64,000 nt of DNA. Origin: Populus alba. Lineage: Eukaryota; Streptophyta; Magnoliopsida; Malpighiales; Salicaceae. The notes beneath the pieces were generated by a model. It saw only the letters and a list, made by a program, of their open reading frames with translations. It was not told the origin of the DNA and did no database searches. The stretch covers positions 17,649,357 to 17,713,356 of the forward strand of contig NC_133302.1 in the NCBI RefSeq assembly GCF_005239225.2, written 5' to 3'. Positions 14,671-40,984 of this stretch are shown here, piece by piece. The translations under genes and the position numbers were made by a program. The number at the start of each line of letters is the position of its first letter. The stretch's first letter is position 1.

Positions 14671-16110
14671 TGTGATTAGTACTTAAAAGTGCATGTTTAT
14701 CAAGGTTTTATATCATCATTTTGCACTTGAAGTATCAATAACTCCTTAATTAAAGCATGTTTTATAATAACAAGTTTGATACTATAAGATACCTTAATTT
14801 ATGGTAAATGCTCATCTTAAATGTAGGCCTATCACATAAATGAAAGGATTGATTGATGAGTTTAAGTATTGAAAGTGAAAGGACAAAGAGATGGCCAAAC
14901 TTAGAAAAGAGATGCTGGTGCAGTCCAAACTAGAACATTGCTCGGTAATTGGATCATATCTGGAATTCTAGATCTTGGATTTAGGTCCATTTTATGAGGA
15001 GACAAAGGCATACAACTTTCATGAGGAGCTCAAGATTTAAAAAGTCCGTTTTGAAGTCCAAATTGAAGGAACAACGAAGAAGTCCGAAGCTGTCTTGCAG
15101 CCCAAACACTGTTTAGTGTTCAGCCCATATCTTGAGTTCTAGAAGTCCAAATGACCTCATCTTTTTTTTGTTGGAAAGCTAAGAAAAATTCCTAGAACAT
15201 TCTTGAGGATTCTGTGCAAATTATGATATTAACAATAACGTCTTGTTCAGACAAGAAGATAAAGATTGTCACCAAGTCAAGATGTGGTCACTCACTCATC
15301 AATTAGTCAACAATTCAATAGTTTTAAATTTTGGCCTATAAAAGGAGGCATTTACCATGTATTGAGGCATCTTGGTTTCCAGATCAAGATCATGCTCTTG
15401 CTTTCTCTCTTTGTGTTGCTTATGTTTTGCTTTCATTAATATCAAGTTTATGCACTTCATTTCCTTTTCTTTACTTACTTAACTTCTTTCTCATTTATGT
15501 TCTTATATTGTTCATTTATGTTTCTTTCATTCATTATGTTTAGCTAAGTTAATTATGTCAAGGTGAAAAGGGTACACTAATGGTGTAAAAATAAGTATAA
15601 TATAAACTTAACATGGACCTTAACGTTGGATACTAACATGTTTTATATTTGTTATCTTGTTCACTTTTAATACTTTGCTTGTTAAATGGTTAATCTAGAT
15701 TTTTGTTGTATAACACTTGGTACAATAAATACTTGGCACTTTCATAGTCCATACTGTATGGTATAACCGACACCTGAGCTATGAAAGGCACTTGATTTGT
15801 TGTTAACATAAGTTATAATCATGAATGCCTGGTAACATTTACAAGTATTAGCTTTATTCAAATAAGATAACTAATGTAATCATGTTAACAATTTATAATC
15901 TGATTGGAACCTCCTTTATGTGTGGTTTCCAATTGAGTAATAAGAGTTTATACTATACTTGTTTGAAGCACCATTAGTGGATCCTCTAACCTTAACATTT
16001 GTTTTTATCGTTGTTTAATCCTTACATTAATCTTCCATCTCAAACTTCTCATTAATTTCTTCCTCCTCTTCTTTTATTATTATTATTAGTATTACTACTA
16101 CTACTACTTC

Positions 16111-16145
<35 letters not shown>

Positions 16146-16150
16146 TTGTT
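14671..16150 (+). mobile_element. Truncated Athila-type LTR (copy B')
   Basis: This starts TGTGATTAGTACTTAAAAGT and is collinear with the LTR at 31445-33190 and, inverted, with 21940-23082. It includes the TATA candidate CCTATAAAAG (15335-15344) and a TTA/ATT microsatellite (about 16075-16145). The last ~300 bp of the full LTR are missing: homology stops in the microsatellite. No internal Athila sequence adjoins it, so it is a solo or truncated LTR. It lies about 400 bp beyond the FAR stop codon. Confidence 0.8.
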
Positions 16151-16567
16151 ATATTTTATGTATACTCTGTATTTGATCAAGGATCCTGACATTGTTGGTC
16201 TTGCCTTTTTCATTCGCATCAGAAATCTGTAATCAACCTACCTTGTTTACAAATGCACTAGCACGGTGATTGAGAGTTGGGTGATATATTTGTCGAATTA
16301 TATAACTATATATTGAATCATTTGACGAAAAAACATTAAGGAAAAATAGAATATATATTTCAATAACAAGAAAATAAAAAATTACAAGTCTTTAACAACA
16401 TACACTTGATATATTGAATTTCACTTTTATTGGATAATTTATTTTGTCCACTAATTTTATTTTTCATCATAATAACAAACACCAAATATTACAATCAATT
16501 ATAAAACAATTCGTAGGAACAGTATGCCCAAATTAATGTCGCCGTGCACATGCTCTCTGGCAATATA
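16150..16567. other. 3' flank of the FAR gene
   Basis: AT-rich sequence without an ORF of interest. It probably holds the FAR 3' UTR and terminator. Part of it (about 16280-16500) is conserved as the flank of the FAR pseudogene at 37385-37660, which marks how far that duplication extended. Confidence 0.55.
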
Positions 16568-19500
16568 TCATTTTAGCACATGTTTTACGAGACCAGGAAA
16601 ATGAACATCCATCATGTAAGCTTCCCAATTAACACTTGTGGGGTCAAAGTTGAAGGCATCTGCTTCTGAACAAGTCTCTCTTGCAGCAATTTGCAACTTC
16701 TCCGAGTTGGTGTCATCAAATCTGAGTAAAAAAAGATAAAATTAATTTATTATGCGCTAATCTATATATGAAATATTCATTCAAACTATAAGATATATCA
16801 ATGGAATTCAATGACTATATCCTTACATGCCCTTAAAGAACACATAAGGTTCATAGAGCTCAGCTAATCGCATTCCACGCTTCAAGTTTCTGTCAAGAGC
16901 AGTGTACTTGTCCTTATAGGGTTTCTGGAATAAACCAGTAATGATTGCTAGATATTGGAATACCTGGTAAGAGAAAAAATTACTGATTTTAGGTTAATTT
17001 ACTTTTTGATTTTAGGTTGTAATCATGCATAGTGTACCAATCTCGATCTTCCTCTACCACTTTATTAGCCATGGGTAGCATAACTAGATATTACTCTCTG
17101 CCTGATCCGTTTTTCTCTTCTAAGCCCAAAAACTATTGCACAATTAAAATACCCACATGAAGCATAGCATAGCCTGAAGTGATCGACTTCCAGCTAATAA
17201 CATTTTGTTTAGGCAGTTCATCAAATACCAAACATACTTTAACAGCCTTTCAAGCAAACATTCCTAGCTAGACGCAATATTTTCGATCCACAAGAGCACT
17301 TTTCGTGCAATTATCATGACACCGCATCCTCTTTAGTTAAAGTTTGATCAGACCTGGTCAAATTTGATCAAAACCTGTTACGTAAAAAGGTTGACTTTGT
17401 AAAACGAAATGAAATTTCTTCGAGTAGGACCTATGGTGATGCAGGTGATGTGTGAAATTTATGAACTATAGAAATAGACTAGATTTTGATGGACATAACG
17501 AAATGTGAAATTAAACTAATGCCAAAGAATTTGAAATTGAGACGCAGCTGAATTAAATTAGTTATGTTCATCAAACCTTTAATGGCAACGAATAACGAAT
17601 CGCCATGTATATACGGAAACTAGCCATGGAGCTGAAAGCTGTAACCTCGCCAACCTTTATTGGCTTTCCTTCTTTGTCAATCAACGGGTTTTGAGTGAAG
17701 TAACGAAATAATAATTCATTTAAATTTGAGAATTTGAACGGATTTCTCAATGAAGATCCTACATGATAAATGATTTCTGAAGTAGTGGATCGGTTTGCAT
17801 ATTCCAACATGGCCACGATAAGAGCATTGATTACCATGTCAGCTGGTATCTGCATCATTTCCAGGACATTTTCAGTTTCGGCATGCTTTTATTTATAAAA
17901 ACTAATTGAAGAACGAAGGGGGTATGAGCTAACCACGTCAACTATTAACTGTGGATTGAACGGAAAGTGTTTCAATTTCCCTTTAGCATAGCCAACAGCT
18001 ACACCATCAATGGTCCTGTGTTATGGGGACAAAAATTGAGATTCGAAAATTAATGAAGAACCATGCATGCTTACACCATGATGCGCATGCAGATATGCAG
18101 TAGCAGACTACCTTACACCTTCAATCCAACCGGGAAACGGCTCCTGGTAAGTACTTGTTACCATAGTAGGGCGGATAATGACTAGAGGCACTGTATCTCT
18201 ACTATAATGGACTAGGAGCATCTCTCCCATTGCCTTGGTAAATACGTAAGTGTTTGGCCATCCAAACATCCTGGCCCTATAAGTAATCACCATCAAGGGA
18301 AAAGATATCATGTCAGGCAAAGAAGTATACATGTCTTAAACGAAAATTGACACAATTTAATTAGATATCATTACCGTTCAGTGCCATAATCCTTCATGTA
18401 AGATGTGACCGCACTCTCTTCAGCATGTTCTGAGTGGAGTTTTCTCAATTTCTCGTCGACCAGTTTCTTTTCTATGTCGACGTCTATCATTTCCGTGCCT
18501 TTCTTGGCTTTACCCAAGCGAAATGGCTTCTCCTGTATCAATCCTGCATCTTCGCCGCATACGTAAGCTGACGAAAGCACAATCATTGAGAAGATGGACG
18601 TTAGTCTGCATTAAAGATTCCAAAACATTACACTTGGCGTGGACTGTGTGCATAGACGAGTACAGTGTGTCCAATTAAAGCTCAATCCAACTACATAATA
18701 AATATTCTTACCAGTTGATAAATGGACAAGCACCTTAACATTATTACATTTCTTGACAAAGTTCAAGAGGTGCAAAGGTCCCAATGTATTGATACCTAAT
18801 GCAACATCGTATCTTCAACAAACAATATAAAAAAATAAGTAAGAAGAGTGAAACGTTACTAATTTTAGTGATTAATAAATTCTTAAATACCTTTCGTTGC
18901 AAAGGAATTTGAATCTCTTATCTCTAAAAGAAATGAACTAATGAAAATCAGTTAATTTCCTTGCTGACCTTTCATCAAAGTTGGTGGTGGCAGCGCAGTT
19001 AATCACCGTATCAATTTCATTCCATAACTGATCCTTCAACAATGAGTCTCTTATTCCCAAGTCCACACAAGAGATGTCCCCAGGAACAGGAGTCACTTTT
19101 TCATAAACGAAGGAATATAAACTTGCACCATGTTGCTCTCTCAAAACATCAAACAAGGCCATCCCTATCACCTGTATAAATCAGTATATATATGCAATAT
19201 AGTATCAAGAACTATTCTATGTTTCAGTCCATGATGCTCATATAATAAATTTAAGATAAAAAAAGAAGAGAGAAAGAATTAAGGAGAAGAAGATTTTACC
19301 TCATTGTGCAGGCGTTCTTCAGCAGATTTAGTGTCCACGGCTCTTAGAAGAAGATAAAGCTTCTTCACTTTGGGTTGAACCCTCAATATCTTCTCCACAA
19401 AAACTGCCAATGTTAGAAAACAAATTTTTTAATAGATTGATTTTGTCACAGCACATCACTACAAAAATTAAAGGGACGAAATCATAAATTCGTAAGTCTT

Positions 19501-19613
19501 GAGGAAATAAATTTCTTTTGAGAGGGGACAATACTCTTTGCAAGAAATCCAGTTGCACCAATGACCAAAATGGACTTGTTGTTTAGGAACTCCATTATAC
19601 TTCCCAGCTCCAT
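16568..19613 (-). CDS. FAR: Alcohol-forming fatty acyl-CoA reductase, ten exons
   Basis: The enzyme reduces long or very-long-chain fatty acyl-CoA to primary alcohol with NADPH, for cuticular wax, suberin or pollen-wall lipids; plant FARs act at the ER or in plastids. I traced ten exons on the minus strand, all with GT-AG borders: 19535-19613, 19300-19403, 18969-19171, 18712-18812, 18375-18567, 18112-18276, 17934-18015, 17577-17849, 16827-16963, 16568-16721. They join in frame to 1491 nt, 496 residues plus TGA, the usual length for plant FARs (about 490-500). The Rossmann motif GATGFLA is at residues 19-25 and the catalytic YVFTK at 237-241. The C-terminal FAR domain is in exons 8-10 (for example FKGMRL-type [14 protein letters not shown]). 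Met1 is followed by a second Met at 7, so either could start. No frame defects seen. The paralogous fragments at 37.4-39.9 and 42.6-44.6 kb are broken. Which FAR subfamily it is cannot be decided here. Confidence 0.93.
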
Positions 19614-19677
19614 TGAAGATAATATTTTCCTACCTTTATTAAATTTTAGAATGAATTAAAAACAGCATCGCAGAGGG

Positions 19678-19686
19678 TATATATAA
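19678..19686 (-). promoter_or_regulatory. TATA box of the FAR gene
   Basis: TTATATATA on the minus strand, about 65 bp upstream of the ATG, is well placed for a short 5' UTR. The same box is preserved in front of both FAR pseudogenes (near 39890 and 44640). Confidence 0.65.
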
Positions 19687-20009
19687 CCACAAAACGATTT
19701 TCCAAGTAGCATCAGATGACAGTGGTTGTTTGCAAACTTAAGTTGACATTTACTAGTATTATAAGTACAGTTTGCAAAATCATTTAAAGCAGGGTAGTTA
19801 GCGAGGATTAGCTAGCATGGACAACGATTGTGTACTTAGACATTAGACACATGCTATTGTGAATTCAAATAGTGCCACGCAATTCTTTTCTTTCACCCTA
19901 GCCTCGGGAAAACAGCTATGGGTCTAAACACCTGCAGATCTAGAAAGTTGCTTGCAACTCCTTTCTTTTGCATACATCGTACTGGGTCCTCTCACAACAA
20001 AAAAATGCA

Positions 20010-21939: not shown

Positions 21940-23082
21940 ATCAAAATTCCTTTCATAGCCCAGGTGTAGGTAATACCATACGGTTGGGCTATGAGAGTGT
22001 CAAGCATTTGTTGTACCAAGTGTTATACAACATAAATCTAGATTAACCATTTAATAAGTAAGGTATTAAGAATTAGTAAGATAAAAAGATAAGACATGTT
22101 AATATTAAACATTAAGGTCCATGTTGAGTTTACACCATACTTATTCTTACACCATTAGTGTAACATTTTCACCTTAACATAATAAACTTAGCTAAACATA
22201 ATGAAGAAGAGAAACATAAATATACAAAACAAGAACATAAAGAAAATACAAGTTAACTAAGTAAAGGAAAGCAAATGAAAAGCATAAAAAAAATATTAAT
22301 GAAAGCAAAACTTAAAAATTACAAAAAATATAAAGAGAGAAATAAAGAGCACGAACTTGGTCTAAACAACCAAGCTCCCAAATACATGGCAAATGCCTCC
22401 TTTTATAGGCCAAAATTCAGAATTATTGATTTGAATAATTGTTGAGTGGGTGGCCAACTTTTGACTTTGTGAAAATCCTTATCTTCTTGTATGAATAAAA
22501 CAAAAATGCTACCATTCGAACTGGGTCCACTAGAAAACATGAAAGTTGTAGGAAAATGACTCAGTTTTCCAGGAAAAAAAATGTAGGTCATTTGGGCTTC
22601 TAAAACTCCAGATATGGGCCAAACACTGAACAGTGTTCGGGCTGTAGGATAGATTCGGACTTCTTCGTTGTTACTATAATTTGGACTTGAAAACGGCGTT
22701 CTTAGATCTTGATGAAAACATGAAAGTTGTAGGCCTATGTCTTACTGAATCGGTGTAAAAATGTGAGATCATTTGGACATCTAGAACTCGAGATATGACC
22801 CAATTACCAAACAATGTTCCAGTTTGGACTGCACCAACATCTCTTTTCTAAGTTTCAGCCTCTCTTTATCTTCACAAATTTCAGTAGTTGAATTCATAAA
22901 TCAATCCTTTGATTTATGTGATAGGCCTGCATTTAAGATGAACATTTACCATATATTAGGGCATTTTATAGTATTAGACTTGTTATTATAAAACATGCTT
23001 TAGTTAAGGAGTTATTGATACTTTAAGTGTAAAATGATGATATAAAACCTTGATAAATATACACTTTTAAGTACTAATCACA
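21940..23082 (-). mobile_element. Element B left-arm 3' LTR, truncated
   Basis: On the minus strand this begins TGTGATTAGTAC at 23082 next to a purine tract and matches 31445 onward. TATA candidate CCTATAAAAGG at 22399-22409. The homology ends near 21940, so about 600 bp of the LTR's 3' part are missing at the junction with the CACTA remnant. Confidence 0.8.
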
Positions 23083-23540
23083 CCCCCCAACCAGCTTATT
23101 ACTAGTCCCTAGTAATCAAAGTGTTAAAATAGAAAAACAATTTGCAAGTTCCACAAAGCAAGGCATTCATCATTCAACTTACTTTAATCTATCCAGATAA
23201 ACAAACTCTTATTAAATTCATATATCTGCTCAATACCTCTTAAACAAGATATTACTAAACCTTTCTTTTGTGCTCAAAATATCAACATATAGTTATGGGG
23301 CTTTACTTGGAAGAAAAACAAATTTTTGCCCTAATGTTTAGGCTAACTTCCTTAGGTTGAGATTATTATTTTATTTATTTTTTTTATTTATATACACATA
23401 CAACTTGAAACATAATGTATCTTTAACCCATGTAACGAGTTTTAGGCTAATGAAATAACAAACACTGACAAACCTGAAACACACTTAAACAAATATAAGA
23501 AACAACAAAACATAATAATAAAACCAAAAGACACAAAGTT
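23083..23540 (-). mobile_element. Left-arm 3' untranslated region and polypurine tract
   Basis: The purine tract GGTTGGGGGG lies on the minus strand at 23083-23095. Compared with the right arm (30210-31444), about 750 bp are deleted at 23455: the segment with the ACATTGAGGACAATGT hairpin and the first of two direct repeats is gone. No gene seen. Confidence 0.65.
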
Positions 23541-23541
23541 T

Positions 23542-24195
23542 TTATAAACGAAGGCTCAAATTCAATCTAAGCTTTTTACGGCTTTCCTTAGTTGACCAAT
23601 TTATGCGACTCATGGAGGAATTAAGTACAGGGATGAAAGATTGTAATTGGTCAATTAATTGTTCAACAGTAGCAGCAGAGATTATGATTTGTCGTGCTGA
23701 AGATGTTAGAAATTCTTGTTCCACAGCATGATCAAGAAAAGACAACAACTTATCATAAAAACCATTAACATTTAACAAACCTATGGGTTTATGGTGAATA
23801 TACAGTTGGGCCCAAGAGGAAATATGAAAGATCTCTTCCAATGTGCCCAGACCACCTGGTAAGGCAATGAAGGCATCAGCATGGTTAAACATTGCATTCA
23901 GTCGATCAGACATTGTGGGGACCTGTAATTCCTCTCTAATTGTTTTTCCAATGATGTCCCCTTGTGCTAAAGCTTTGGGGACAACCCCCAAAACTTGACT
24001 ATCTCCTAAAGATGCATCTATTGACACTCCTCCCATTAACCCAAGGCTGCCTCCTCCATACACTAAATGAATCTTTCACTCAACTAGTACCTGACCAAGA
24101 TGATTTGCTAATTCTAAAAACTCCTTTTCTTTTCCAGGATTGGATCCACCGAAAACACAAATATTGTTTATGTGATTACTTGAGGAACCTGTCAT
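23542..24195 (-). pseudogene. LOG-like gene, left-arm copy with in-frame stop
   Basis: This is collinear with the intact LOG-like ORF of the right arm (29556-30209), inverted. The start codon is at 24193-24195. A TGA at about residue 40 (where the right arm has an Arg codon) ends the frame; it stays open from 24063 to the TAA at 23542. The catalytic loop PGGLGTLEE and the VYGGGSLGLMGG nucleotide-binding stretch are unchanged. Differences from the right arm cluster at residues about 58-66 and in the last 30. Like its twin it has no introns. Confidence 0.85.
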
Positions 24196-24489
24196 TTCTA
24201 CACACGTCTGTATTTGATGAATGTATGGGTTGAGTAGAAATGAAGGGAAGGAAGAGATGAATTTATAGATGAGAAATTAAAAATGCAATCATACCACCTA
24301 TATATAGGCCAGCTGTAGTCTCACTTTCTCTCTCTCTCTTTATTTATTTATTTATTTTGAAAAAGCATGTGTATGTACAGGTAGTTGTGATTGTGGCTCA
24401 CATCTTTCCTTGGTTTTACGTCCAAGAACGGCTTAAACGCCCTTTATGGGTCGGGGATAGGCTTCCCATCCAGTTTTCTTAAAAACTAG

Positions 24490-24967
24490 CAAACAGGGTC
24501 TTTTTTAGTTAGATTCCCAAGACTAATTCGAGCATGTTTTTTATGGCATTGGGGCCATAAATCATAAATTGCACGATGCACATCTCCACTAGGGTGCGTC
24601 TCAAAAGTCAATAGAAGATTATCTAAAGACCCCTTACTTAGGCCATCCTTAATGAATTGTATTTTATCTTCACGGTTTACAGATACCATTCCTAAAGAAC
24701 GACATCTCGCATTACAAGTCCATCTGGCACATCTGTGACAGACTTGCAGTCATTTTGCACGACGTTTCTTTACATGTGTGAAATGAAAGAATTAGAGGAC
24801 TCACCTGATAACCAGACCTTTGCTTTAATCAGCCAACAAATATCTTTAGGAATTCCATGGTTCATTAACAACCTCAATCTTTCACACCTAGCACGGTAAA
24901 TTTTTGTAATCGCATTTTGAGGCAGAGCGGGAAAATACTTTTTCAATTTTTCAAGAGTGGTGTCCAT
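24490..24967 (-). pseudogene. Cysteine-rich protein gene, left-arm copy, frameshifted
   Basis: Inverted counterpart of 28769-29206. The ATG is at 24967. A net deletion of about 25 bp at about 24772 removes the segment just before the basic/cysteine cluster and shifts the frame, so the protein would stop after about 65 residues. The downstream part remains recognisable as an open stretch (24486-24689). Confidence 0.8.
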
Positions 24968-25183
24968 TTTCAACTGAGAATTGGGGGGGGGGGGAGATTC
25001 AAAGAAAGGAGAAAGAGCAAAGAATTGCATAAATATATACACAGATATCAGTTATCATGGGAAACTGAAAGAACCAACTAAAGAGTCACGGAGTACCGTT
25101 ATCCGCTATTTGACCGGGGTGAGAGAAACTAGCAAAACAAAAGATACACCAAAACAAAACACAAAACAATGTGAGAAAAAGAA

Positions 25184-26200
25184 TCAATCTTTATATACAG
25201 GATCACTCAATTCAATAGAGTCATTTTCAATTGAAAAATTGTCAAAATAAACTTTCAATCGATGCCCATTTACCTTGAAAACATTGCCATTCTTTGGATT
25301 CTCGATATCACAGGCCCCATATGGATACACATGTTTCACAATAAAAGGACCGCTCCATCTTGATCTTAGTTTTCCAGGAAATAAATGGAGTCGAGAATTA
25401 TAAAGCAAGACTTTTTGACCAACATTGAATGTTTTTCTCAGTATTTTCTTGTCATGAAACTCTTTGAGTCTTGCTTTATTAATTCTTGAATTGTCATATG
25501 CATCATTTCTTATTTCCTCAAGCTCATTTATTTGCAATTTTTGCAGCTGACTAGCATCATCAATGTTTGAATTGAAAGCTTTAATAGCCCAATAAGCTTT
25601 ATGTTCAATTTCCACAGGCAAGTGACAAGGTTTTCCATATACTAGTCTATAAGGTGACATACCTAATGATGTTTTATACGCAGTTCGATAAGCCCAAAGT
25701 GCATCATTAAGCCTTAAAGACCAGTCTTTCTGATTAGGGTTCACTGTTTTCTCTAAGATCTGTTTGATCTCCCTATTAGCAAGTTCTACTTGTCCACTCG
25801 TTTGAGGGTGATAAGGGGTGGCAACTTTGTGTGTGATTCCATATTTATTCATTAAAGACTCAAATGGCTTGTTGCAAAAATGTGTTCCACCATCACTTAT
25901 CATGGCTCGAGGGATTCCAAATCAACTTAAAATATTTTCTTTCAAAAACTTTATCACTGTTTTGTGATCATTGGTTCGACTTGGAATTGCCTCTATCCAT
26001 TTTGAAACATAATCTACTGCGACCAATATGTACAAGAAACCAAATCATGGAGGAAATGGACCCATGAAATCTATACCCCAACAGTCAAAGATCTCAATAA
26101 CAAGAATAGGATTTAAAGGCATCATGTGACGTTTTGAAATAGATCCCAACTTTTGACAATTTTCACAAGTTTTGCAGAATGCATGTGAGTCTTTGAACAT
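25184..26200 (-). pseudogene. Athila-type integrase, left arm
   Basis: Ty3/gypsy integrase, Athila lineage. The longest open piece (25184-25903) starts [14 protein letters not shown] with the second catalytic Asp. It continues through [18 protein letters not shown] with the catalytic Glu, the segment [16 protein letters not shown], and the C-terminal [19 protein letters not shown] (GPY/F-type) to the stop. Upstream of 25903 a TGA (from an Arg codon in FGIPRA context) interrupts the catalytic core, and a TAG occurs in the HHCC region near 26206. Not functional as one protein. Confidence 0.88.
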
Positions 26201-26206
26201 GGTGGG

Positions 26207-26878
26207 CTAGTAAAATCCACTTTGTAAGATTTTTGTAGTTGTGTTTCTTGATGAGAAATGACCCCCATATGCCTTAGAATGACATAATTTAATGACACTA
26301 CTTACCTCATTGTCAGGAATGCATCTTCGAAATATTTGATCAGGACTATATTTGAATAAATAAGGGTCATCCCAATAAAAGTTCTTTACTTCGTTCAAGA
26401 ACTTTCTTCTGTCTTGGGTACTCCAATGAGCTGGCAATTGTCCTGAAACAAGAAAATTAATAATATTAGTAAACCAAGGCATTGTAGAGACAGAAAATAA
26501 AGATTCATCAGGAAAGTAGTCATCGATTGGTGTGATGTCAAATATCGAATCAATTGTCAATCTTGACAAATGATCTGCGACAACATTTTCGGTGCCTTTC
26601 TTGTCTTTGATTGTGATATCAAATTCTTGAAGCAACAAAATCCACCACACCAATCTAGCCTTAGAATATTTCTTAGAGAGAAGATATTTTAATGCTGCAT
26701 GATCACTAAAAACAACAACAGGTGAGCCAACATGATAAGATCTGAACTTGTCACATGCAAATACTACTGCAAGTAATTCTTTTTCAATGGTAGTGTAATT
26801 CATTTGAGCACTATTCAAAGTTTTACTTGCATAGTAAATCACATAAGGTTTCTTATCTTTTCTTTGTCCCAACACCAA
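26207..26878 (-). pseudogene. Athila-type RNase H and integrase N-terminus, left arm
   Basis: 223-residue open stretch beginning [20 protein letters not shown] (RNase H), then [31 protein letters not shown] and [11 protein letters not shown], the standard Athila RNase H end, followed by the integrase N-terminal HHCC region ([16 protein letters not shown]). There is no reverse transcriptase upstream: the sequence meets its own inverted copy at 26880. The piece therefore lacks its natural polyprotein start. Confidence 0.88.
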
Positions 26879-26880
26879 TA

Positions 26881-27415
26881 AAAAGATAAGAAACCTTATG
26901 TGATTTACTATGCAAGTAAAACTTTAAATAGTGCTTAAATGAATTACACCACCACTGAAAAAGAATTATTTGCAGTAGTATTTGCTTGTGATAAATTCAG
27001 ATCTTATCTTATTGGCTCACCTGTTGTTGTTTTTAGTGAACATGCAGCATTGAAATATCTTCTTTCTAAGAAAGATTCTAAGGCTAGATTGGTGCGGTGG
27101 ATTTTGTTACTTCAAGAATTTGATATCACAATCAAAGACAAGAAAGGCACCGAAAATGTTGTTGCAGATCATTTGTCAAGATTGACAACAGATTCAAAAT
27201 CTGACATCACACCAATCGATGACTACTTTCCCGATGAATCTTTATTTTCCGTTTCTACGATGCCTTGGTTTGCTAATATTGTTAATTTTCTTGTTTCAGG
27301 ACAATTGCTAGCTCATTGGAGTACCCAAGACAAAAGAAAGTTCTTGAACGAAGTGAAGAACTTTTATTGGGATGACCCTTATTTATTCAAATATTGTCCT
27401 GATCAAATATTTTGA
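26881..27415 (+). pseudogene. Athila-type RNase H and integrase N-terminus, right arm
   Basis: Starts within the RNase H at [18 protein letters not shown]; a TAA at 26937-26939 replaces the next codon. The frame is then open from 26939 to 27415 ([22 protein letters not shown]). It ends at a TGA where the left arm has an Arg codon (DQIF-R). About 15 of 158 residues differ from the left arm. Confidence 0.87.
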
Positions 27416-28558
27416 AGATGCATTCCTGACAATGAGGTAAGTAGTGTCATTAAATTTTGTCATTCTGAGGCATGTGGGGGTCATTTCTCATCAAGAAAGA
27501 CAACTGCAAAAAACTTACAAAGTGGATTTTATTAGCCCACCATGTTCAAAGACTCACATGCATTCTGCAAGACTTGTGAAAATTGTCAAAAGTTGGGATC
27601 TATTTCAAAACGTCACATGATGCCTTTAAATCCTATTCTTGTCATTGAGATCTTTAACTGTTGGGGTATAGATTTCATGGGTCCATTTCCTCCATCATTT
27701 GGTTTTGTGTACATATTAGTCGCAGTAGATTATGTTTCAAAATGGATAGAGGCAATTCCAAGTCGAAACAATGATCACAAAACAGTGATAAAGTTTTTGA
27801 AAGACAATATTTTGAGTCGATTTGGAATTCCTCGAGCCATAATAAGTGATGGTGGAACACATTTCTGCAACAAGCCATTTGCTTCTTTAATGAAGAAATA
27901 TGGAATCACACACAAAGTTGCCACCGCTTATCACCCTCAGACAAGTGGACAAGTAGAGCTTGCTAATAGGGAGATCAAACAGATCATGGAGAAAACGGTG
28001 AACCCTAATCGGAAAGACTGGTCTTTAAGACTTAATGATGCACTTTAGGCTTATCGAACTGCATATAAAACATCATTAGGTATGTCACCTTATAGACTAG
28101 TCTATGGAAAACCTTGTCACTTACCTGTGGAAATTGAACATAAAGCTTATTGGGCTATTAAAGCTTTCAATTCAAACATTGATGATGCTAGTCAGCTGCG
28201 AAAATTGCAAATAAATGAGCTTGAGGAAATTAGAAATGATGCATATGACAATTCAAGAATTCATAAAGCAAGAATCAAAGAGTTTCATGACAAGAAAATA
28301 CTGAGAAAAACATTCAATGTTGGTCAAAAAGTCTTGCTTTATAATTCTCGACTCCATTTATTTCCTGGAAAACTAAGATCAAGATGGAGCAGTCCTTTTA
28401 TTGTGAAACATGTGTATCCATATGGGGCCTGTGATATCGAGAATCCAAAGAATGGCAATGTTTTCAAGGTAAATGGGCATCAATTGAAAGTTTATTTTGA
28501 TAATTTTTCAGTTGAAAATGACTCTACTGAATTGAGTGATCCTGTATATAAAGATTGA
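27416..28558 (+). pseudogene. Athila-type integrase, right arm
   Basis: Continuation of the polyprotein with three in-frame stops (TGA 27413, TAG about 27533, TAG about 28046). Catalytic residues are still spelled out: [10 protein letters not shown] (first Asp, about 27670), IISDGGTHF (second Asp, about 27848) and [12 protein letters not shown] (Glu, about 27955), with DD35E spacing. The GPY/F-like C-terminus ([19 protein letters not shown]) ends at PVYKD and the TGA at 28556. Downstream come the two accessory ORFs. Confidence 0.88.
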
Positions 28559-28700
28559 TTCTTTTTCTCACATTGTTTTGTGTTTGTTTTGGTGTATCTT
28601 TTGTTTTGCTAGTTTCTCTCACCCCGGTCAAATGGCGGATAACGGTACTCTGTGACTCTTAAGTCGGTTCTTTCAGTTTCCCATGATAACTGATATCTGT

Positions 28701-28710
28701 GTATATAATT
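28701..28710 (+). promoter_or_regulatory. TATA-like box before the cysteine-rich ORF
   Basis: GTATATAATT, followed by a CT-rich stretch, lies 60-68 bp upstream of the ATG at 28769. The left arm has the equivalent GTATATATTT. Position and the pyrimidine-rich region suggest a separate transcript for this ORF. Confidence 0.45.
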
Positions 28711-28768
28711 GTGCAATTCTCTGCTCTTTCTTCTTTCTTTGAATCTCCCATTCAATTCTCATTTGAAA

Positions 28769-29206
28769 ATGGACACCACTCTTGAAAAATTGAAAAAGTA
28801 TTTTCCCGCTCTGCCTCAGAATGCGATTACAAAAATTTACCGTGCTAGGTGTGAAAGATTGAGGTTGTTAATGAACCATGGAATTCCTGAAGATATTCGT
28901 TGGCTGATTGAAGCAAAGGTCCGATTATCAGGTGAGTCCTCCAATTCTTTCATTTCACACATGCCTGGAACAGGTAAAAGCACTTTTGCAAAGAAACGTC
29001 ATGCAAAACGACTGAAAGTCTGTCACAGATGTGCTAGATGGACTTGTAATGCGACATGTCGTTCTTTAGGAATGGTATCTGTAAACCGTGAAGATAAAAT
29101 ACAATTCATTAAGGATGGCCTGAGTAAGGGGTCTTTAGATAATCTTTTGTTGACTCTTGAGACGCATCCTAGTGGAGATGTGCATCGTGTAATTCATGAT
29201 TTATGA
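28769..29206 (+). CDS. Small basic cysteine-rich protein carried by element B
   Basis: 145 residues, open from the ATG at 28769 to the TGA at 29204-29206; an upstream in-frame ATG at 28709 exists but lies at the TATA-like site. Residues 1-50 are probably helical (LEKLKKYFPALPQ, ARCERLRLLMNHGIP). Residues about 70-85 are strongly basic (STFAKKRHAKRLK). A cysteine cluster CHRCARWTCNATC (CX2CX4CX3C) follows at about 86-98, then VSVNREDKIQFIKDGL. A basic helix before a small zinc-knuckle is the layout of the cysteine-rich nucleic-acid-binding proteins of carlaviruses and relatives, which act as silencing suppressors or transcription regulators. That relationship is my inference from layout and motif spacing. 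It is neither gag nor a typical env-like protein. The left-arm twin is frameshifted. The gene sits between integrase and LOG with about 210 bp of spacer upstream. Confidence 0.6.
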   Translation: MDTTLEKLKKYFPALPQNAITKIYRARCERLRLLMNHGIPEDIRWLIEAKVRLSGESSNSFISHMPGTGKSTFAKKRHAKRLKVCHRCARWTCNATCRSLGMVSVNREDKIQFIKDGLSKGSLDNLLLTLETHPSGDVHRVIHDL

Positions 29207-29289
29207 CCACAATTCCATAAAGAACATGATCGACTTAGTCTTGGGAATCTGACTAAAAAAGACCATGTTTGCTAGTTTTTAAGAAAACT

Positions 29290-29555
29290 GGATGGGAAGC
29301 CTATCCCCGACCCATAAAGGGCGTTTAAGCCGTTCTTGGACGTAAAACCAAGGGAAGATGTGAGCCACAATCACAACTACCTGTACATACATGCTTTGTC
29401 AAAATAAATAAATAAAGAGAGAGAGTGTGAGACTACAGCTGGCCTACATATAGGTGGTATGATTGCATTTTCACTTTTTCATATATAAATTCTTCTCTTC
29501 CTTCCCTTCATTTCTACTCATCCCATATATTCATCAAATATAGAAGTGTATAGAA
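29290..29555 (+). promoter_or_regulatory. Spacer and putative promoter of the LOG-like ORF
   Basis: Strongly conserved between the arms. It contains GGCCTACATATAGG near 29442 (CTATATATAGG in the left arm), a second TATA-like TATATAAAT at 29482-29490, and a CT-rich stretch up to the ATG at 29556. This is a plausible core promoter about 70 bp upstream of the start codon. The AGAGAGAGAG run near 29416 is also shared with the left arm. Confidence 0.5.
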
Positions 29556-30209
29556 ATGGCAGGTTCCTCAAGTCATCACATAAGAAATATTTGTGTTTTC
29601 GGTGGATCCAGTCCTGGGAAAGAAAAAGAGTTTTTAGAATCAGCAAATCATCTTGGTCAGGTACTAGCTGAGAGAAAGATTCATTTAGTGTATGGGGGAG
29701 GCAGCCTTGGGTTAATGGGAGGTGTTTCAATGGCTGCATTTTTAGGAGGCAATCAAGTTTTGGGGGTTGTCCCCAAAGCTTTAGCAAATGGGGACATCAT
29801 TGGAAAAACAATTGGAGAGGAACTACAGGTCCCAACAATGTTTGACCGACTGAATACCATGTTTAACCATGCTGATGCCTTCATTGCCTTACCAGGTGGT
29901 CTGGGCACATTGGAAGAGATCTTTCATATTTCATCTTGGGCCCAACTGCACATTCACCATAAACCTATAGGTTTGTTAAATGTTAATGGTTTTTATGATA
30001 AGTTGCTATCTTTCCTTGATCAAGCTGTGGAACAGGAATTTCTAACATCTTCGGCACGACAAATCATAATCTCTGCTGCTACTGCTGAACAATTGATTGA
30101 CCAACTACAATCTTTCATCCCTGTCATTGATCCTTGCATGAGTCGCCTAGATTGGTCAGCTAAGGAAAGCCGTAAAAAGCTTAGATTAGATTTGAGCCTT
30201 CATCTGTGA
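29556..30209 (+). CDS. LOG-type cytokinin riboside 5'-monophosphate phosphoribohydrolase-like protein, intronless, in retrotransposon
   Basis: LOG enzymes release active cytokinin bases from their riboside monophosphates in the cytosol. This 217-residue ORF is full length for the family (about 210-220). It shows the Rossmann start ICVFGGSSPGKEKEF (residues 12-26), VYGGGSLGLMGG (45-56), the catalytic-site segment with Arg98 (MFDRLN), the signature loop PGGLGTLEE (113-121) with its conserved Glu, and WAQLHIHHKPIGLLNVNGFY (128-147). Deviations: the signature's usual Tyr (PGGYGT) is Leu, and the usual Lys after the Arg is Leu. It may therefore be a divergent enzyme or inactive. Plant LOG genes normally have several introns; this has none and lies between an Athila integrase and its polypurine tract, indicating capture as a retrocopy. 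Its inverted twin is broken by a stop. Confidence 0.85.
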   Translation: MAGSSSHHIRNICVFGGSSPGKEKEFLESANHLGQVLAERKIHLVYGGGSLGLMGGVSMAAFLGGNQVLGVVPKALANGDIIGKTIGEELQVPTMFDRLNTMFNHADAFIALPGGLGTLEEIFHISSWAQLHIHHKPIGLLNVNGFYDKLLSFLDQAVEQEFLTSSARQIIISAATAEQLIDQLQSFIPVIDPCMSRLDWSAKESRKKLRLDLSLHL

Positions 30210-31444
30210 AACCTTGTGTCTTTTGTGTTATTAATAGCATATTATTTTGTTTTGTTACTTCTTATATTTGTTTAAGTGTGTTTCAGGTTTGTCATTGTTC
30301 GCTGTTTCAGGTGATGTCTTCTATACTCTATCTTTCTACCTTAGGACATTGAGGACAATGTCTCGTTTTGGTTGGGGGGAGAGGGTAGTAGTTTAAAAAA
30401 AAAAAAACTAACCAACTAACTGCTTTTGTTTTTAAAAAAACCATTTGGCAAAACTGTTATTACTAGGATGGCAGAGTAAAGAGGAATTATTCTTGAGACG
30501 CATCTTAGTAAAAATTTTCTAATGGTTATTTGCAATATTCATAACAAGGCCTATTAGAATACTTCTTGAAATATTCAGGTTTACAAACTCTTGCATTGTT
30601 ATCACTTAATTCTGCTCATATACTCATTTAACAAGTATTATTAAACCTTCATTTTCACACACACACTTTAACATATGATTGTGGGTTGCACATTGGATTA
30701 TTACATTATTTTTGTTCTTTTGTTAAAGGTAACAACTAAGGGAAAGGGATAGTATATAATTTGCAAAAAAAAAAATAAATAAAAATGAAATGAATGATAA
30801 TATTGATGATAATAAAAACGTAGATAAGTTTGGTTTCGTAGCCTCCCTAACCTAAACAATTAAGCTCGAAGGGGTGTTTTAACACCTAATACCCTAAAGT
30901 CAACTGACTTGGGAGCTATTGGCCCAAAGCTTGTTACATGGGTTAAGGAGAAAAGCTTAAGGGAATCAAACATTGCACTATCTACGTATCAGTATCTACA
31001 ACTCGAGTTGTTAAGCTCGTAGGGGTGTCTCAACACCTAATGCCCTAAGACCAACTGGTCTGGGAGTCATTAGCCTAAAACTCGTTACATGGGTTAAAGA
31101 TACATTATGTTTTAAGTTGTATGTGTATATATATAAAAAAAGAAGTAATAATAATAATAATCCCAACCCAAGGAAGTTCACCTTAAACATTTGAACATAA
31201 TATTGTTTTCTTCCAACAAAAGCCCCATCATCTATGTTTTCATATATTGAGCACATAAAAAGAAGGTTTATTAATATCTTGTTTAAGAAGTATGAAGCAG
31301 TAATATAAATTTAATGAGAGTTTGTTTATCTGGATAGATTAATGGAAGTTGAATGATGAATGCCTTGCTTTGTGAAACTTGCAAATTGTTTCTCTATTTT
31401 AACGCTTTAGATTACTAGGGACTAGTAATAAGCTGGTTGGGGGG
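30210..31444 (+). mobile_element. Right-arm 3' untranslated region of element B
   Basis: About 1.2 kb without genes. It holds a perfect short hairpin ACATTGAGGACAATGT (30346-30361) followed by a purine run GGTTGGGGGGAGAGGG (30371-30386), a motif pair I recognise from Athila elements. There are two direct repeats of about 85 bp (30864-30950 and 31015-31100; core GGGGTGT..CAACACCTAAT and CGTTACATGGGTTAA). The true polypurine tract GCTGGTTGGGGGG ends at 31444, next to the LTR. Confidence 0.7.
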
Positions 31445-33190
31445 TGTGATTAGTACTTAAAAGTGCATGTTTATCAAGGTTTTATATCATCATTTTGCAC
31501 TTGAAGTATCAATAACTTCTTAACTAAAACATGTTTTATAATAACAAGTTTGATACTATAAGATACCTTAATTTATGGTAAATGCTCATCTTAAATGCAG
31601 GCCTATCACATAAATAAAAGGATTGATTGATGAGTTTAAGTATTGAAAGTGAAAGGACAAAGAGATGGCCAAACTTAGAAAAGAGATGCCGGTGCTGTCC
31701 AAACCGGAACATTGCTCGGTAATTGGATCATATCTGGAGCTCTAGATCTCGGATTTAGGTCCATTTTATATGGATGGAAAGGTAAGACAAAGGCCTACAA
31801 CTTTCATGGGAGCCCAAGATTTAAAAAGGCCGTTTTGAAGTCCAAACTGAAGGAACAACGAAGAAGTCTGAAGCTGTCCTGCAGCCCAGACACTATTTAG
31901 TGTTCAACCCATATCTTGAGTTCTAGAAGTCCAAATGACCTCATCTTTTTTTTTTTGTTGGAAAGCTGAGACAATTTCCTAGAACATTCTTGAGGATTCT
32001 GGGCAAATTATGATGTTAGCAATGACATCTTGTTCAGACAAGAAGATAAGGATTGTCGCCAAGTCAAGATGTGGCCACCCACTCATCAATTAATTAACAA
32101 ATCAATAGTTCCAAAATTTGGCCTATAAAAGGAGGCACTTATCATGTATTGAGGCATCTTGGTTTCCATATCAAGATCATGCTCTTGCTTTCTCTCTTTG
32201 TATTGCTTATGTTTTGCTTTCATTAATATCAAGTTTATGCACTTCATTTCCTTTCCTTTACTTAGTTAACTTCTTTCTCATTTATGTTCTTATCTTGTTC
32301 ATCTATGTTTCTTTCTTTCATTATGTTTAGCTAAGTTAATTATGTCAAGGTGAAAAGGGTACACTAATGGTGTAAGAATAAGTATAATATAAACTTAACA
32401 TGGACCTTAACGTTGGATATTAACATGTTTTATATTTGTTATCTTGTTCACTTTTAATACTTTGCTTGTTAAATGGTTAATCTAGATTTATGTTGTATAA
32501 CACTTGGTACAACAAATACTTGGTACTTTCATAGCCCATACTGTATGGTATAACCAACACCTGAGCTATGAAAGGAACTTGATTTGTTGTTAACATAAGT
32601 TATAATCATGAATGCTTGCCAACATTTACAAGTATTAGCTTTATTCGAATAAGATAACTAATGTAATCATGTTAACAATTTATAATCTGATTGGAACCTC
32701 TTTTATGTGTGGTTTCCAATTGAGTAATAAGAGTTTATATTATACTTGTTTGAAGTACCATTAGTGGATCCTCTAACCTTGACATTTGTTTTTATCGTTG
32801 TTTAATCCTTACATTAATCTTTCATCTCAAAGTTCTCATTAATTTCTTCATCTTCTTCTTCTTCTTTTATTATTATTATTATTATTATTTGCATTCTGTT
32901 TATATTATATAATATATCTCTTTGATCTTTTCATAAACTCAGTATATAGGCTGGAAACCTGTGACCCGATCTTTTAGATCATTCTCAGGTATAACAACGC
33001 CACGTACTGAGTATTATTATTATTATTACTAGTACTAGTACTACTATTGTTGTTATTATCGTTATTATTGTTATTGTTGCGTTGTTATTTATAATTTATA
33101 CAATTAACCTCTCTGTGATTTGACCCCGGTCTTGCCGGGTTATTTATTACTTTGACACTCCTGCACTTGGGAGAAGACATCAATCATGTC
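31445..33190 (+). mobile_element. Element B right-arm 3' LTR
   Basis: Starts TGTGATTAGTAC at 31445; about 1.74 kb long. TATA candidate CCTATAAAAG at 32122-32131. It contains TTA/ATT microsatellites (about 32864-32890 and 33013-33030) and the short inverted repeat GACCCCGGTCTTGCCGGG near 33121. The end is set by the start of copia coding sequence near 33190; the exact CA terminus is uncertain. Confidence 0.8.
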
Positions 33191-37384: not shown

Positions 37385-39990
37385 CGAGTGATATATTTTT
37401 CAAATTATATAACCATATATTCAGTCATTTAACAAAAAAAAAAAACATTAATGAAAAATATCATATTTCAATAACAAAAAAATCAAAATTACAAGTCTTT
37501 AACAACATAAACTTGATATATTAGATTTCACTTTTATTGGATAATTTATTTTCTCCACTAATTTTATTTTTCATCCTAATAAAAAACACCATTACATTCA
37601 ATTATAAGACAGTTCGTAGGAACAGTATGCCCAAATGTCGCCGTGCAAATGCTATCTGGCAATATATCATTTTAGCACATATTTTACGAGACCAGGAAAT
37701 GAACATCCATCATGTAAGCTTCCCAATTAACACTTGTGGGGTCAAAGTTGAAGGCATCTGCTTCTGAACAAGTCTCTCTTGCAGCAATTTGCAACTTTTC
37801 CGAGTTGGTGTCATCAAACTATGTAATATTCATTCAAACTATAAGATATATCAATGGAATTCAATGACTATATCCTTACATGCCCTTAAAGAACACATAA
37901 GGTTCGTAGAGCTTAGCTAATCGCATTCCACGCTTCAAGTTTCTGTCAAGAGCATGCAGTGTACTTGTCCTTGTAGGGTTTCTGGAATAAAACAGTATTT
38001 ATTGCTAGATGGAATACCTGGTAAGAGAAAAAATTACTTGTTAGTTTGAGATTAATGAGAAAACAATCACAGAAGTAGGAAGTTTATGTTTGATTATATG
38101 TAACAAAGGAAAAGCAATTCTGGAATAAGACATACGTTAATTTACTTATTGCTTTTAGGTTGTAATAATGCATGAGACATGCATAACTAGAAATTACTCT
38201 CTGCCTCCGTTTTTATCTTCTAAGCCCAAAAACTATCGAAATCACCATCTCCGACAGCAAACTCGTTGCACAATTAAAATACCCACATGAAGCAGTTCAT
38301 CAAATACTAAACATACCAAACCCATAAGCCCTTCAAGCAAACATTCCTAGATGCAATATTCTGACTGCTTATATCATCAAACACTTTCAAAGCATTATTG
38401 AAATTGTCAAACTTAGAGTATAAATCAAGGCATCAATTACCCAGAAAAGCATGTCTTTATCTGTCCAAGAACCAATTCAACTTAATAGTTTAAGCTATTA
38501 GTTGATGTCTTTATATTATTCTTTAACACATCCCTTAAATGAAAGCCTTTTGAACTTGAAATTTACACAGACTCACATTACTTTATGCTTAATTTTTATC
38601 ATATAAACGAGGATGATTAGATTCAAACTCGTAACCACATTATCATCAAGGCATAAAAGATTTTGAAATTGATTCTACATGTAATCCAATGTACAACATT
38701 GTTATCAAATCGGGCTGAACCTGATAAGTTATCAAAAAATTCACTGATGTAGAATTTAATTGGGTTGGGTTTAAAGTTAGACCTGCTAGAGTATTAATAA
38801 TAATAAAAGGTTAATTTAGTCAAAATTTCATTGAATTAGTCAAATTTGATCAAAACCTGCTACGTCAAAAGGTTGACTTTGCAAAAAACAAAGTATATAT
38901 GTCTTAAACGAAAATTGTCACAATTCAATTAGATATTACAACCATTGAGAAGAATGTTAGTGTGCATTAAATATTCCAAAACATTATACTAAATTCTACC
39001 CATGAGCTTTCAGTTTGAGTTCATAATCCAATGCTCAATCCAACTACCTGATAAATACCTTTTAAAAACACTAATGCTCAATCCAACAACCTGATAAATA
39101 CTCACTTGGCGTGGATTGTGCCATGCATAGACGAGTACAGTGTGTCCCATTAAAGCTCAATCCAACTACATAATAAATATTCTTACCAGTTGATAAATGG
39201 ACAAGCACCTTAACATTATTACATTTCTTGACAAAGTTCAAGAGGAGCAAAGGTCCCAGTGTATTGATACCTAATGCAACATCGTATCTTCAACAAACAA
39301 TATAAAAAAGTAAGTCAAAAGAGTGAAACGTTTCTAATTTTAGTGATTAATAAATTCTTAAATATCTTTCGTTGCAAAGGAATTTGAATCTCTTATCTCT
39401 AAAAGAAATGAACTAATGAAAATCAGTTAATTTCCTTGCTGACCTTTCATCAAAGTTGGTGGTGGCAGCGCAGTTAATCACCGTATCAATTTCATCTATG
39501 TAGATTTTACCTAATTATGCAGGCGTTCTTCAGCAGATTTAGTGTCCACGGCTCTTAGAAGAAGATAAAGCTTCTTCACTTTGGGTTGAACCCTCAATAT
39601 CTTCTCCACAAAAACTGCCAATGTTAGAAAACAACATTGTTAATAGATTGATTATGTCACAGCACATCACTACAAAAATTAAAGGGACGAAATCATAAAT
39701 TCGTAAGTCTTGAGGAAATAAATTTCTTTTGAGAGGGGACAATACTCTTTGCAAGAAATCCAGTTGCACCAATGACCAAAATGGATTGTTGTTTAGGAAC
39801 TCCATTATACTTCCCAGCTCCATTGAAGATAATATTTTCCTACCTTTATTAAATATTTGGATGAATTAAAAACAGCATCTCAGAGGGTATATATAACCAC
39901 AAAACGATTTTCCAAAGTAGCATCAGATGACAGTGGCTGTTTGCAAACTTAAATTGACATTTACTAGTCTTATAGGTACAGTTTGCAAAT
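37385..39990 (-). pseudogene. FAR pseudogene 1
   Basis: A partial copy of the FAR gene at 16568-19613 with its 3' flank and promoter. Remaining pieces: exon 10 (about 37667-37820; one base lost in a run of A), exon 9 (about 37882-38021; a 4-bp insertion and a short deletion), introns 8 and 6 in part, exon 4 (about 39197-39296), the 3' quarter of exon 3 (about 39443-39496), exon 2 (about 39515-39622) and exon 1 (about 39752-39828; one C deleted after the Asn-Asn codons). Exons 5-8 and most of exon 3 are deleted. The TATA box is retained near 39890. It cannot make an enzyme. Confidence 0.9.
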
Positions 39991-40640
39991 CCTTTCTTTT
40001 GCATTCATCGTGTTGGGTCCTCTGCTCGCATTTAATCATTCAAGGATGTCCTCTCAAGCTTTGTGGACAGGTATTAATTTATTGTTAGTTGGAGACACAT
40101 CAAAACTCTGAAAATGACATAACTTATACCATCTGAAAAATTTGGACAACATAAATTCAACAACATTAAGAAAGATCACTAATGGTGAATGTAGTGGGCC
40201 ACATGAGCCTCTCAAAGACAAGGGAGCCCCACCATCTTTGAATGATTCATATAGCCTACTTCATTCAATGTTGGTTACATTTTCTTAGTGTTATTGGAAT
40301 TATCTTATTGAGATCGTACCAATTGTATTAATGGCGTCATCATCGAAGATTCGTTATGCCTCTAAGAGTGTCATTATCGAAGCTTCAAAGCCTTTAAGAC
40401 CTCTTTCCTTTTTTTTTTTTAATTTTTTTTCTTTATCCTTTATCTTTACAAGCTACAAGGAGGAAAGAAGAGAGAGAAACAAAGAATGAAAAAAAGCCTC
40501 TAAATCACACCGAAGTTTCGATGACAACACTACCAGTACGATAAAAAAGATCTTAAAGAGATGATTCTAACAATACTAAGAAAATTCAATGGTGATTTAT
40601 GTGGGCTACTCTAGTTATTGATATAGGAACGTTTTATGTC
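39991..40640. other. Upstream DNA between FAR pseudogene 1 and copia copy 1
   Basis: No gene seen. The first ~40 bp still match the FAR promoter; the remainder is shared only with 44930-45640 in the second duplication copy. TC/GA-rich patches near 40400-40470. Confidence 0.6.
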
Positions 40641-40699
40641 CTAACCACTTCATTATTAGCATATATATATGTCGATCTAAATATTGAAGCAAGTTGATA

Positions 40700-40970
40700 T
40701 AGGAATATTTTGTCATGACACCATGATTGAAAAATTATTTGTTCTCATATGTTATCAAAGTTCCAAACCACCTTCTTCTATAGAGAAAAACAAAGACTTC
40801 CCAACAACTCATTAAGCTTATTATAAAATGTATATATATAGGAAATATTATAGGCACTACTCTAGTGTTGTAATATCTACTCTTACTATTGTATATTGCT
40901 CTGCACATATAAATAGAAAAGGGTTGACTAACTAATAGGTTAAGCCTCCTACTTGTTCTCAATTTAGTAT
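40700..40970 (+). mobile_element. Copia LTR and primer-binding site, copy 1
   Basis: The 3' part of a copia LTR ending ...CTTGTTCTCAA near 40967, followed by TTTAGTATCAAAGCC, a slightly mutated initiator-Met tRNA primer-binding site (TGGTATCAGAGC). The second duplication copy has TTGGTATCAAAGCC at about 45893. The LTR 5' end is not clear. Confidence 0.7.
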
Positions 40971-40984
40971 CAAAGCCCTCTACC

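Follow-up and report, generated by a model that had tools for sequence, protein, structure and literature searches.

A LONELY GUY-like gene carried behind a viral-CRP-like frame by a high-copy Athila-type retrotransposon family of Populus alba

Extra domains fixed in plant long terminal repeat (LTR) retrotransposons are considered rare in the relevant sections of a report on such elements (PMC9289625). The same sections record, citing Steinbauerova et al. 2011, YgdH domains, which are of the LONELY GUY (LOG) type, in Ty3/gypsy elements of Citrus sinensis, C. clementina and Populus trichocarpa, and they describe an orchid AlkB open reading frame (ORF) whose activity was demonstrated in vitro. 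Here we analyze a 64,000-nt stretch of Populus alba (contig NC_133302.1, positions 17,649,357 to 17,713,356, forward strand; hereafter the window), in which one 5'-truncated member of a Ty3/gypsy family of Athila type and high copy number is present. The 3' part of this family runs in the order integrase, NABP (an ORF resembling the cysteine-rich protein, or CRP, of carlaviruses), LOG, untranslated region (UTR), polypurine tract and LTR. The family is numerous in P. alba and was recently active, and its LOG gene was under purifying selection in the element's past. With a probability of about 55%, and judging from sequence, we consider LOG to be a captured, selected and repurposed gene that would act on another or broader nucleotide substrate and modestly help the element.

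A preliminary description of this region, made from the nucleotide sequence alone, had reported an intronless LOG frame of 217 codons, flanked by an Athila-type integrase on one side and by the polypurine tract and 3' LTR on the other, and our analysis bears this out: the right-arm ORF (29556..30209, + strand) matches Pfam PF03641 with an E value of 7.7e-39 and contains both R98 and E121. Among the element genes in the window, it alone has a full frame. The gene had also been called intact within its element, which is right for LOG itself but not for its carrier, as the element is 5'-truncated and its RNase H–integrase remnant (26876..28558, + strand; 98.3% identical over 26881-28802 to L083, a longer copy discussed below) is split into three ORFs, with the integrase C-terminal frame ending at 28558, upstream of LOG. 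Likewise, LOG had been assigned to the usual place of the env-like ORF; it is indeed present there, but behind NABP (28769..29206, + strand, 145 codons in the window), which adjoins the integrase and had gone unmentioned.

Searching the P. alba genome for LOG gave 1,785 first-look candidates, of which 150 were scored. All 150 were at least 95% identical, which refutes a single accidental insertion, and 134 were listed without a stop in a ranking that favors intact frames. At each of the 30 LOG-ranked loci read, LOG comes with its leader and 3' UTR, and an LTR begins farther downstream (2 loci have a further LTR match upstream), so that LOG does travel with the element, as had been proposed. 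NABP covered at least 350 nt in 26 of these loci, was a short piece in 3 and was missing from 1, while the integrase end was almost complete in 15, partial in 9 and absent from 6. Because ranking by LOG is biased toward intact frames, we also ranked copies by NABP (1,721 first-look candidates; 150 scored, all of them matching; best 50 of 150 read). This sample contained a full LOG in 34 copies (24 open), a shared scar in 11, a partial LOG in 4 and none in 1. The scar copies (L032, L034, L043-L047, L050, L052, L072 and L078) have one deletion in common, which leaves the last 38 nt of LOG. Two LOG copies at C9:2325309 and C9:2333170 lie 7,861 bp apart and are apparently in tandem, sharing an LTR.

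Selection on LOG was estimated from the 34 NABP-ranked copies that have a full LOG, yielding a pooled ratio of nonsynonymous to synonymous substitution rates (dN/dS) of 0.278 (codon-bootstrap interval, 0.163-0.469) from pairs of related copies that are not independent. Constraint in the element's past had been suspected before, and a ratio of 0.28 among element copies substantiates it. Variants found in at least two copies comprised 19 synonymous and 16 nonsynonymous changes and no stops, and singletons comprised 30, 47 and 5, respectively; the nonsynonymous fraction of shared variants was below the neutral expectation (p = 0.0024), with p = 0.06 for singletons. Diversity was lower in LOG (0.024) than in the UTR (0.042) and leader (0.068). 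The window itself contains two 5'-truncated element pieces, arranged as head-to-head arms, whose LOG copies gave a dN/dS of 0.31 (Fisher p = 6e-5). Identity between the arms was 95.2% for RNase H–integrase, 94.9% for NABP, 91.4% for LOG, 87-88% for the 3' UTR and 80.0% for the LTR, in keeping with the earlier remark that the core is better conserved than the 3' UTR.

The closest solved relative of the LOG ORF by sequence is Arabidopsis At2g37210 (LOG3; E = 9.7e-61), which was also the best Protein Data Bank match of its predicted model (predicted local distance difference test score (pLDDT), 84.4; template modeling (TM) score, 0.93 by target; root-mean-square deviation, 1.5). The protein thus has the LOG fold, and it also contains the PGGxGTxxE motif. 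In CgLOG, Arg99 and Glu122 are named as catalytic, and Met96, His97, Lys100, Glu125 and Trp129 are placed at the prenyl site (PMC4979012). We compared these positions across 121 proteins, namely the window ORF and its best 120 hits, a set selected for likeness to the window. The catalytic pair was kept (R98 in 114 and E121 in 117), as were Met95 (120) and Trp128 (112) of the prenyl site. At position 96, His was replaced by Ser, Phe or Tyr in all 121 proteins; at position 99, Lys gave way to Leu, Met or Ile in 120 and to His in 1; and at position 124, corresponding to CgLOG Glu125, Glu was replaced by His in 119. AtLOG3, six host proteins and three Xanthoceras LOGs retained the His, Lys and Glu. 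L99, H124 and R98 occurred in all 34 full NABP-ranked copies and E121 in 33 of them.

The origin of LOG is informed by a relative from another plant, L001 (DAIEQH010000041.1), in which an open RNase H–integrase of 466 aa is followed by a 186-aa NABP, with 74% identity to the window. The 983 nt that remain behind NABP in L001 contain no LOG, and the UTR comes immediately after NABP. Alignment of L001 to the window halts at 29389 and weakly resumes at 30329-30379 (76%, E = 0.004), so that LOG, with its leader, was either gained behind NABP or lost in the relative. Based on this LOG-less relative, the inserted segment occupies 29390..30300 on the + strand (right border uncertain, 30210-30330) and consists of a leader of ~165 nt, the LOG ORF and a short trailer. 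L001 is a plant retrotransposon contig inside a metagenome-assembled genome labeled Candidatus Nomurabacteria, a placement that we infer to be contamination.

To search for a donor, we used an exact DNA pattern for GG[Y/F]GTxEE, which occurred at 20 sites in P. alba, compared with 1 for a backward control. Eighteen sites were read as host LOG exons, and a further one belongs to L082, an element copy that has mutated. All 18 host exons encode 25 residues; GT follows each of them, and the first G of the GG is preceded by an A; none has the conserved FIALP residues in front, hence an AG acceptor (acceptors were counted by eye from the flanking sequence). The expectation that host LOG genes carry introns was thus correct for 18 of 18 exons. 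Because the element LOG runs without interruption across both junctions that are intron-flanked in the host, a spliced transcript is its probable source.

In a LOG tree, the Populus element and Xanthoceras LOGs were separate from 24 host LOGs, but the tree names no donor because it carries a long-branch warning and its host LOGs were collected with a profile that favors LOG3/LOG8. It is compatible with a single capture that predates Populus or with several captures, all from one type of LOG. Outside Populus, the nearest LOGs among the matches listed were three Xanthoceras proteins (60-63% identity), and in one of them, P0241 from Xanthoceras sorbifolium, the LOG domain is fused to a further stretch that we take to resemble a gypsy gag–protease. 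P0241 suggests that LOG elements also exist in Sapindales. Two proteins of 217 aa that carry a LOGL10 annotation in P. trichocarpa and P. nigra (P0227 and P0261) group with the element LOGs and are probably transposon copies named as genes. A candidate promoter in the captured leader, TATATAAA, precedes the ATG in the window, but among 64 copies, drawn from 30 LOG-ranked loci and 34 NABP-ranked ones that partly coincide, a single one had it, and it was dropped. Scans of IMG/VR gave no confirmed relative, and PADLOC gave no match.

The neighbor of LOG, NABP, matched two Pfam families above their curated cut-offs when the query began 12 codons before ORF 28769-29206: Viral_NABP (PF05515; E = 1e-6, 29.3 bits) and Carla_C4 (PF01623; E = 3.1e-5, 24.3 bits). 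In an alignment of 28 members including the window (A1), 22 and 21 members, respectively, matched these families at E ≤ 0.001. NABP was 182 codons long in 43 of 50 genome copies, which had been ranked by the 182-aa protein P0001, and 145-aa forms were also common among the proteins listed. We found 733 relatives of NABP, and among the 120 listed, those with a species name were from Populus; 90 of the 120 contain a C-X2-C-X4-C-X3-C finger. The AF2 model of P0001 was too poor for a fold search (pLDDT, 48.7). Carlavirus proteins of this type are nucleic-acid binders, and suppression of RNA silencing is described for some of them (PMC3689765). NABP and the viral proteins are likely to share common descent.

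Upstream of its LOG, the copy L083 has a 5' LTR, a primer-binding site (PBS), a long open frame (gag, protease and reverse transcriptase (RT)) and then RNase H–integrase, which would give a length of ~11.9 kb by arithmetic if its 3' LTR equals the 5' LTR. The PBS behind the 5' LTR, TGGCGCCGTTGTCGGGGA, presumably resembles tRNA-Asp rather than tRNA-Met. A PBS other than tRNA-Met is described for non-chromoviruses (PMC6317226). Pfam scans of L083 in four pieces returned Retrotrans_gag, Asp_protease_2, RVT_1, RT_RNaseH, Integrase_H2C2 and rve, in this order, which is the gag–protease–RT–RNase H–integrase order expected of the Athila lineage. By Pfam, no second RNase H family was found in the 567-aa RNase H–integrase piece of L083; an additional RNase H marks the Tat lineage, according to the same source (PMC6317226). 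The Athila ORF-1 domain PF03078 had no match in the window and L083 pieces scanned, but that source finds it in 16% of Athila elements, so it is no requirement for membership. Domain order and the absence of a second RNase H support the original assignment of the element as Athila-type.

Upstream sequence was available for 30 NABP-ranked copies, revealing an integrase core in 8 (form A) and none in 22 (form B). In form B, the protease region is joined to the RNase H end and integrase zinc region, followed by the integrase end, so that RT and RNase H (about 1.56 kb) and the integrase core (0.73 kb) are missing; L055, L034 and L040 are examples (1-1100, element orientation). Ten of the 22 copies have this fused frame open, and form B would have to depend on proteins made elsewhere. 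NABP is present in form B, together with a full LOG in 13 copies (11 open) or the 38-nt scar in 9, and form A carried a full LOG in 6 copies, a partial one in 1 and none in 1. Six copies were inspected for LTR pairs, which were compared across roughly 1.4-1.6 kb, leaving 3-21 gap positions uncounted. We left out the C9 pair because that copy is in tandem; among the others, the LTRs of the two scar copies differed by 0 (C10) and 7 (C19) substitutions, those of the form B copy (C6) by 2 and those of the two form A copies by 6 (C7) and 15 (C17). The family has moved recently, both with and without LOG. Forms A and B have a near-identical 3' part, and scar copies are scattered rather than grouped in a tree built from NABP and UTR, which has weak support, a combination that fits template switching between packaged RNAs.

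We propose that, in an ancestral element, the spliced mRNA of a LOG gene would have been inserted next to NABP, on its downstream side, as a retrocopy captured by template switching, and that LOG would be translated in cells where the element is active. The protein would be a phosphoribohydrolase splitting the base from a nucleoside 5'-monophosphate, its rebuilt prenyl/base pocket may admit another or broader nucleotide substrate, and the element could gain a modest benefit through the nucleotide or hormone state of the cell. We prefer repurposing because decay would hardly keep a catalytic pair while fixing three changes in one pocket. A number of results weigh against this proposal. The comparison with L001 leaves undecided whether LOG and its leader were added behind NABP or lost in the lineage of L001; no donor is among the 18 host exons read (13-16 of 25 residues like the element), leaving mRNA capture unproven; and no poly(A) scar was noticed. 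Ranking by NABP probably selected younger members of the family, the contrast between shared and singleton variants alone was not significant (p = 0.15), and open full LOG frames were found in just 3 of 8 form A copies. The LOG-less scar copies have also multiplied (11 of 50), their diversity in the NABP region (0.0164) is like that of LOG copies (0.0168), and the two LTRs of one scar copy show no substitution in 1,413 aligned columns (4 gaps). Because of these last three results, LOG is dispensable in cis, and since LOG-deleted copies also moved, any benefit it confers is not strictly required there.

These observations can be read in other ways. An element LOG of canonical function would convert cytokinin riboside monophosphates to active cytokinin, favoring the dividing cells in which the element multiplies. 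Such cytokinin activation, which the preliminary description had taken as given, is possible in view of the retained PGGxGTxxE motif and catalytic Arg and Glu, the 50% identity to AtLOG3 as the best fold match, and a score above the cut-off of NCBIfam TIGR00730. The NCBIfam bacterial cytokinin-LOG model scores the element (116.8) about like three plant LOGs (132.4, 116.2 and 132.6); this score does not discriminate between cytokinin activation and repurposing and is no evidence against cytokinin activity, as plant LOGs fall equally far below the cut-off. Activation is unproven, however, because the three base/prenyl residues are replaced, as they are in nearly all of the 121 proteins, and changing the AMP-site residues of CgLOG to Ala, Ser19 excepted, is reported to abolish activity almost completely (PMC4979012), so we regard a canonical role as somewhat unlikely. 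That LOG merely hitch-hikes unused, its open frames mirroring the youth of the copies, would agree with the multiplication of copies lacking it, with 10 of the 34 full LOG copies being broken and with singletons showing no clear departure from neutrality, as expected after insertion. This is unlikely in turn, given a dN/dS interval well below 1, the absence of stops among shared variants, the conserved catalytic residues with their consistent pocket change, and open frames in 11 of 13 full LOG copies of the form without RT and integrase core.

An ordinary intronless host locus merely flanked by retroelement debris, for which the 217-aa LOGL10 annotations of P. trichocarpa and P. nigra are the only support, is extremely improbable. 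No such locus was found: the order around LOG is repeated at all 30 LOG-ranked loci, LOG stands behind NABP in 34 of the 50 NABP-ranked copies, every host exon read is intron-flanked, and all loci would have to be segmental duplicates of one gene. Returning to a LOG selected within the element, a more speculative and rather doubtful extension is that NABP and LOG could form a counter-defense cassette, pairing a virus-type RNA-binding protein directed at RNA silencing with a LOG whose rebuilt pocket destroys or binds a signaling or damaged nucleotide. Its target might be an immune nucleotide or an AMP modified at N6, to name two examples, and the cassette would be kept even by pol-less parasites.

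The rest of the window shows how this copy is embedded. Downstream of LOG, the right arm continues on the + strand with the 3' untranslated part (30210..31446; inner G-run at 30371-30380, polypurine tract at about 31435-31444) and a 3' LTR of about 1.74 kb (31447..33183; 93.4% to the 5' LTR of L083), whose start was set by comparing 5' and 3' LTRs in other copies. A related, 3'-truncated LTR, recognized by sequence comparison (14673..16154, +), is possibly the old 5' LTR of the same insertion, and the upstream half of L083 matches the window in the RNase H–integrase part and the LTR only. In the left arm, all on the - strand, lie an LTR (21949..23080; 81-83% to the two + strand LTRs), LOG (23542..24195), NABP (24555..24967) and an RNase H–integrase remnant (24934..26875; the match extends into NABP), with the coordinates of LOG and NABP obtained by inverted-repeat arithmetic. 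The order of genes thus equals that of the right arm, as reported earlier, but this LOG is broken by a stop at codon 40; its NABP has gaps and a stop at codon 81, and 750 nt of the 3' UTR are missing. The head-to-head arms span 21949-33183 and are separated by 9 nt. A separate repeat family at 37813-46896 comprises two direct repeats at a distance of ~4.8 kb (parts at 93% and 81%), and an incomplete third copy lies at 18631-19992.

One genome thus holds LOG-bearing, LOG-deleted, pol-bearing and pol-less forms of a young family, and because these forms occur side by side in P. alba, with a LOG-less relative in another plant, the effect of LOG on the element is measurable. The rebuilt pocket poses a concrete biochemical question, and counts of poplar LOG genes may include transposon copies named LOGL10.

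Compared with known systems, the nearest in kind are the YgdH gypsy elements of Citrus and poplar, which likewise carry an extra LOG-type domain in plant gypsy elements; the section on them in PMC9289625 reports detection only, whereas element place, copy number, selection, pocket, deleted and non-autonomous forms and NABP come from this study. Among the matches listed, that report alone joined LONELY GUY with gypsy elements in the open-licence literature, where we did not meet the NABP neighbor, the anatomy, the LOG-deleted or pol-less forms, the selection or the pocket. The orchid elements related to Ogre resemble the poplar family in having a host-type enzyme, AlkB (an N6-methyladenosine demethylase), as an extra gypsy ORF, but differ in enzyme and in lineage, belonging by the same sections to the Tat family, near Ogre (PMC9289625). 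Athila elements with an env-like ORF, as presented in the relevant part of PMC7264820, also have sense ORFs between pol and the 3' LTR, while in the poplar element no env-like or PF03078 domain was met and NABP and LOG stand there instead. NABP and the Potato virus H CRP are both small and Cys-rich, with PF05515 and PF01623 matches; the viral finger, C-X2-C-X9-C-X4-C in the corresponding part of PMC3689765, differs in spacing from that of NABP. With plant type-I LOGs (AtLOG3 and AtLOG8), the element LOG shares the fold, PGGxGTxxE and the catalytic Arg and Glu, and differs in sequence (50% and 45% identity, respectively), in its replaced base/prenyl residues and in having no introns. A LOG-type domain in gypsy elements was already known, and the layout, NABP, the forms, the selection and the pocket change are new as far as our searches of the open-licence literature reach.

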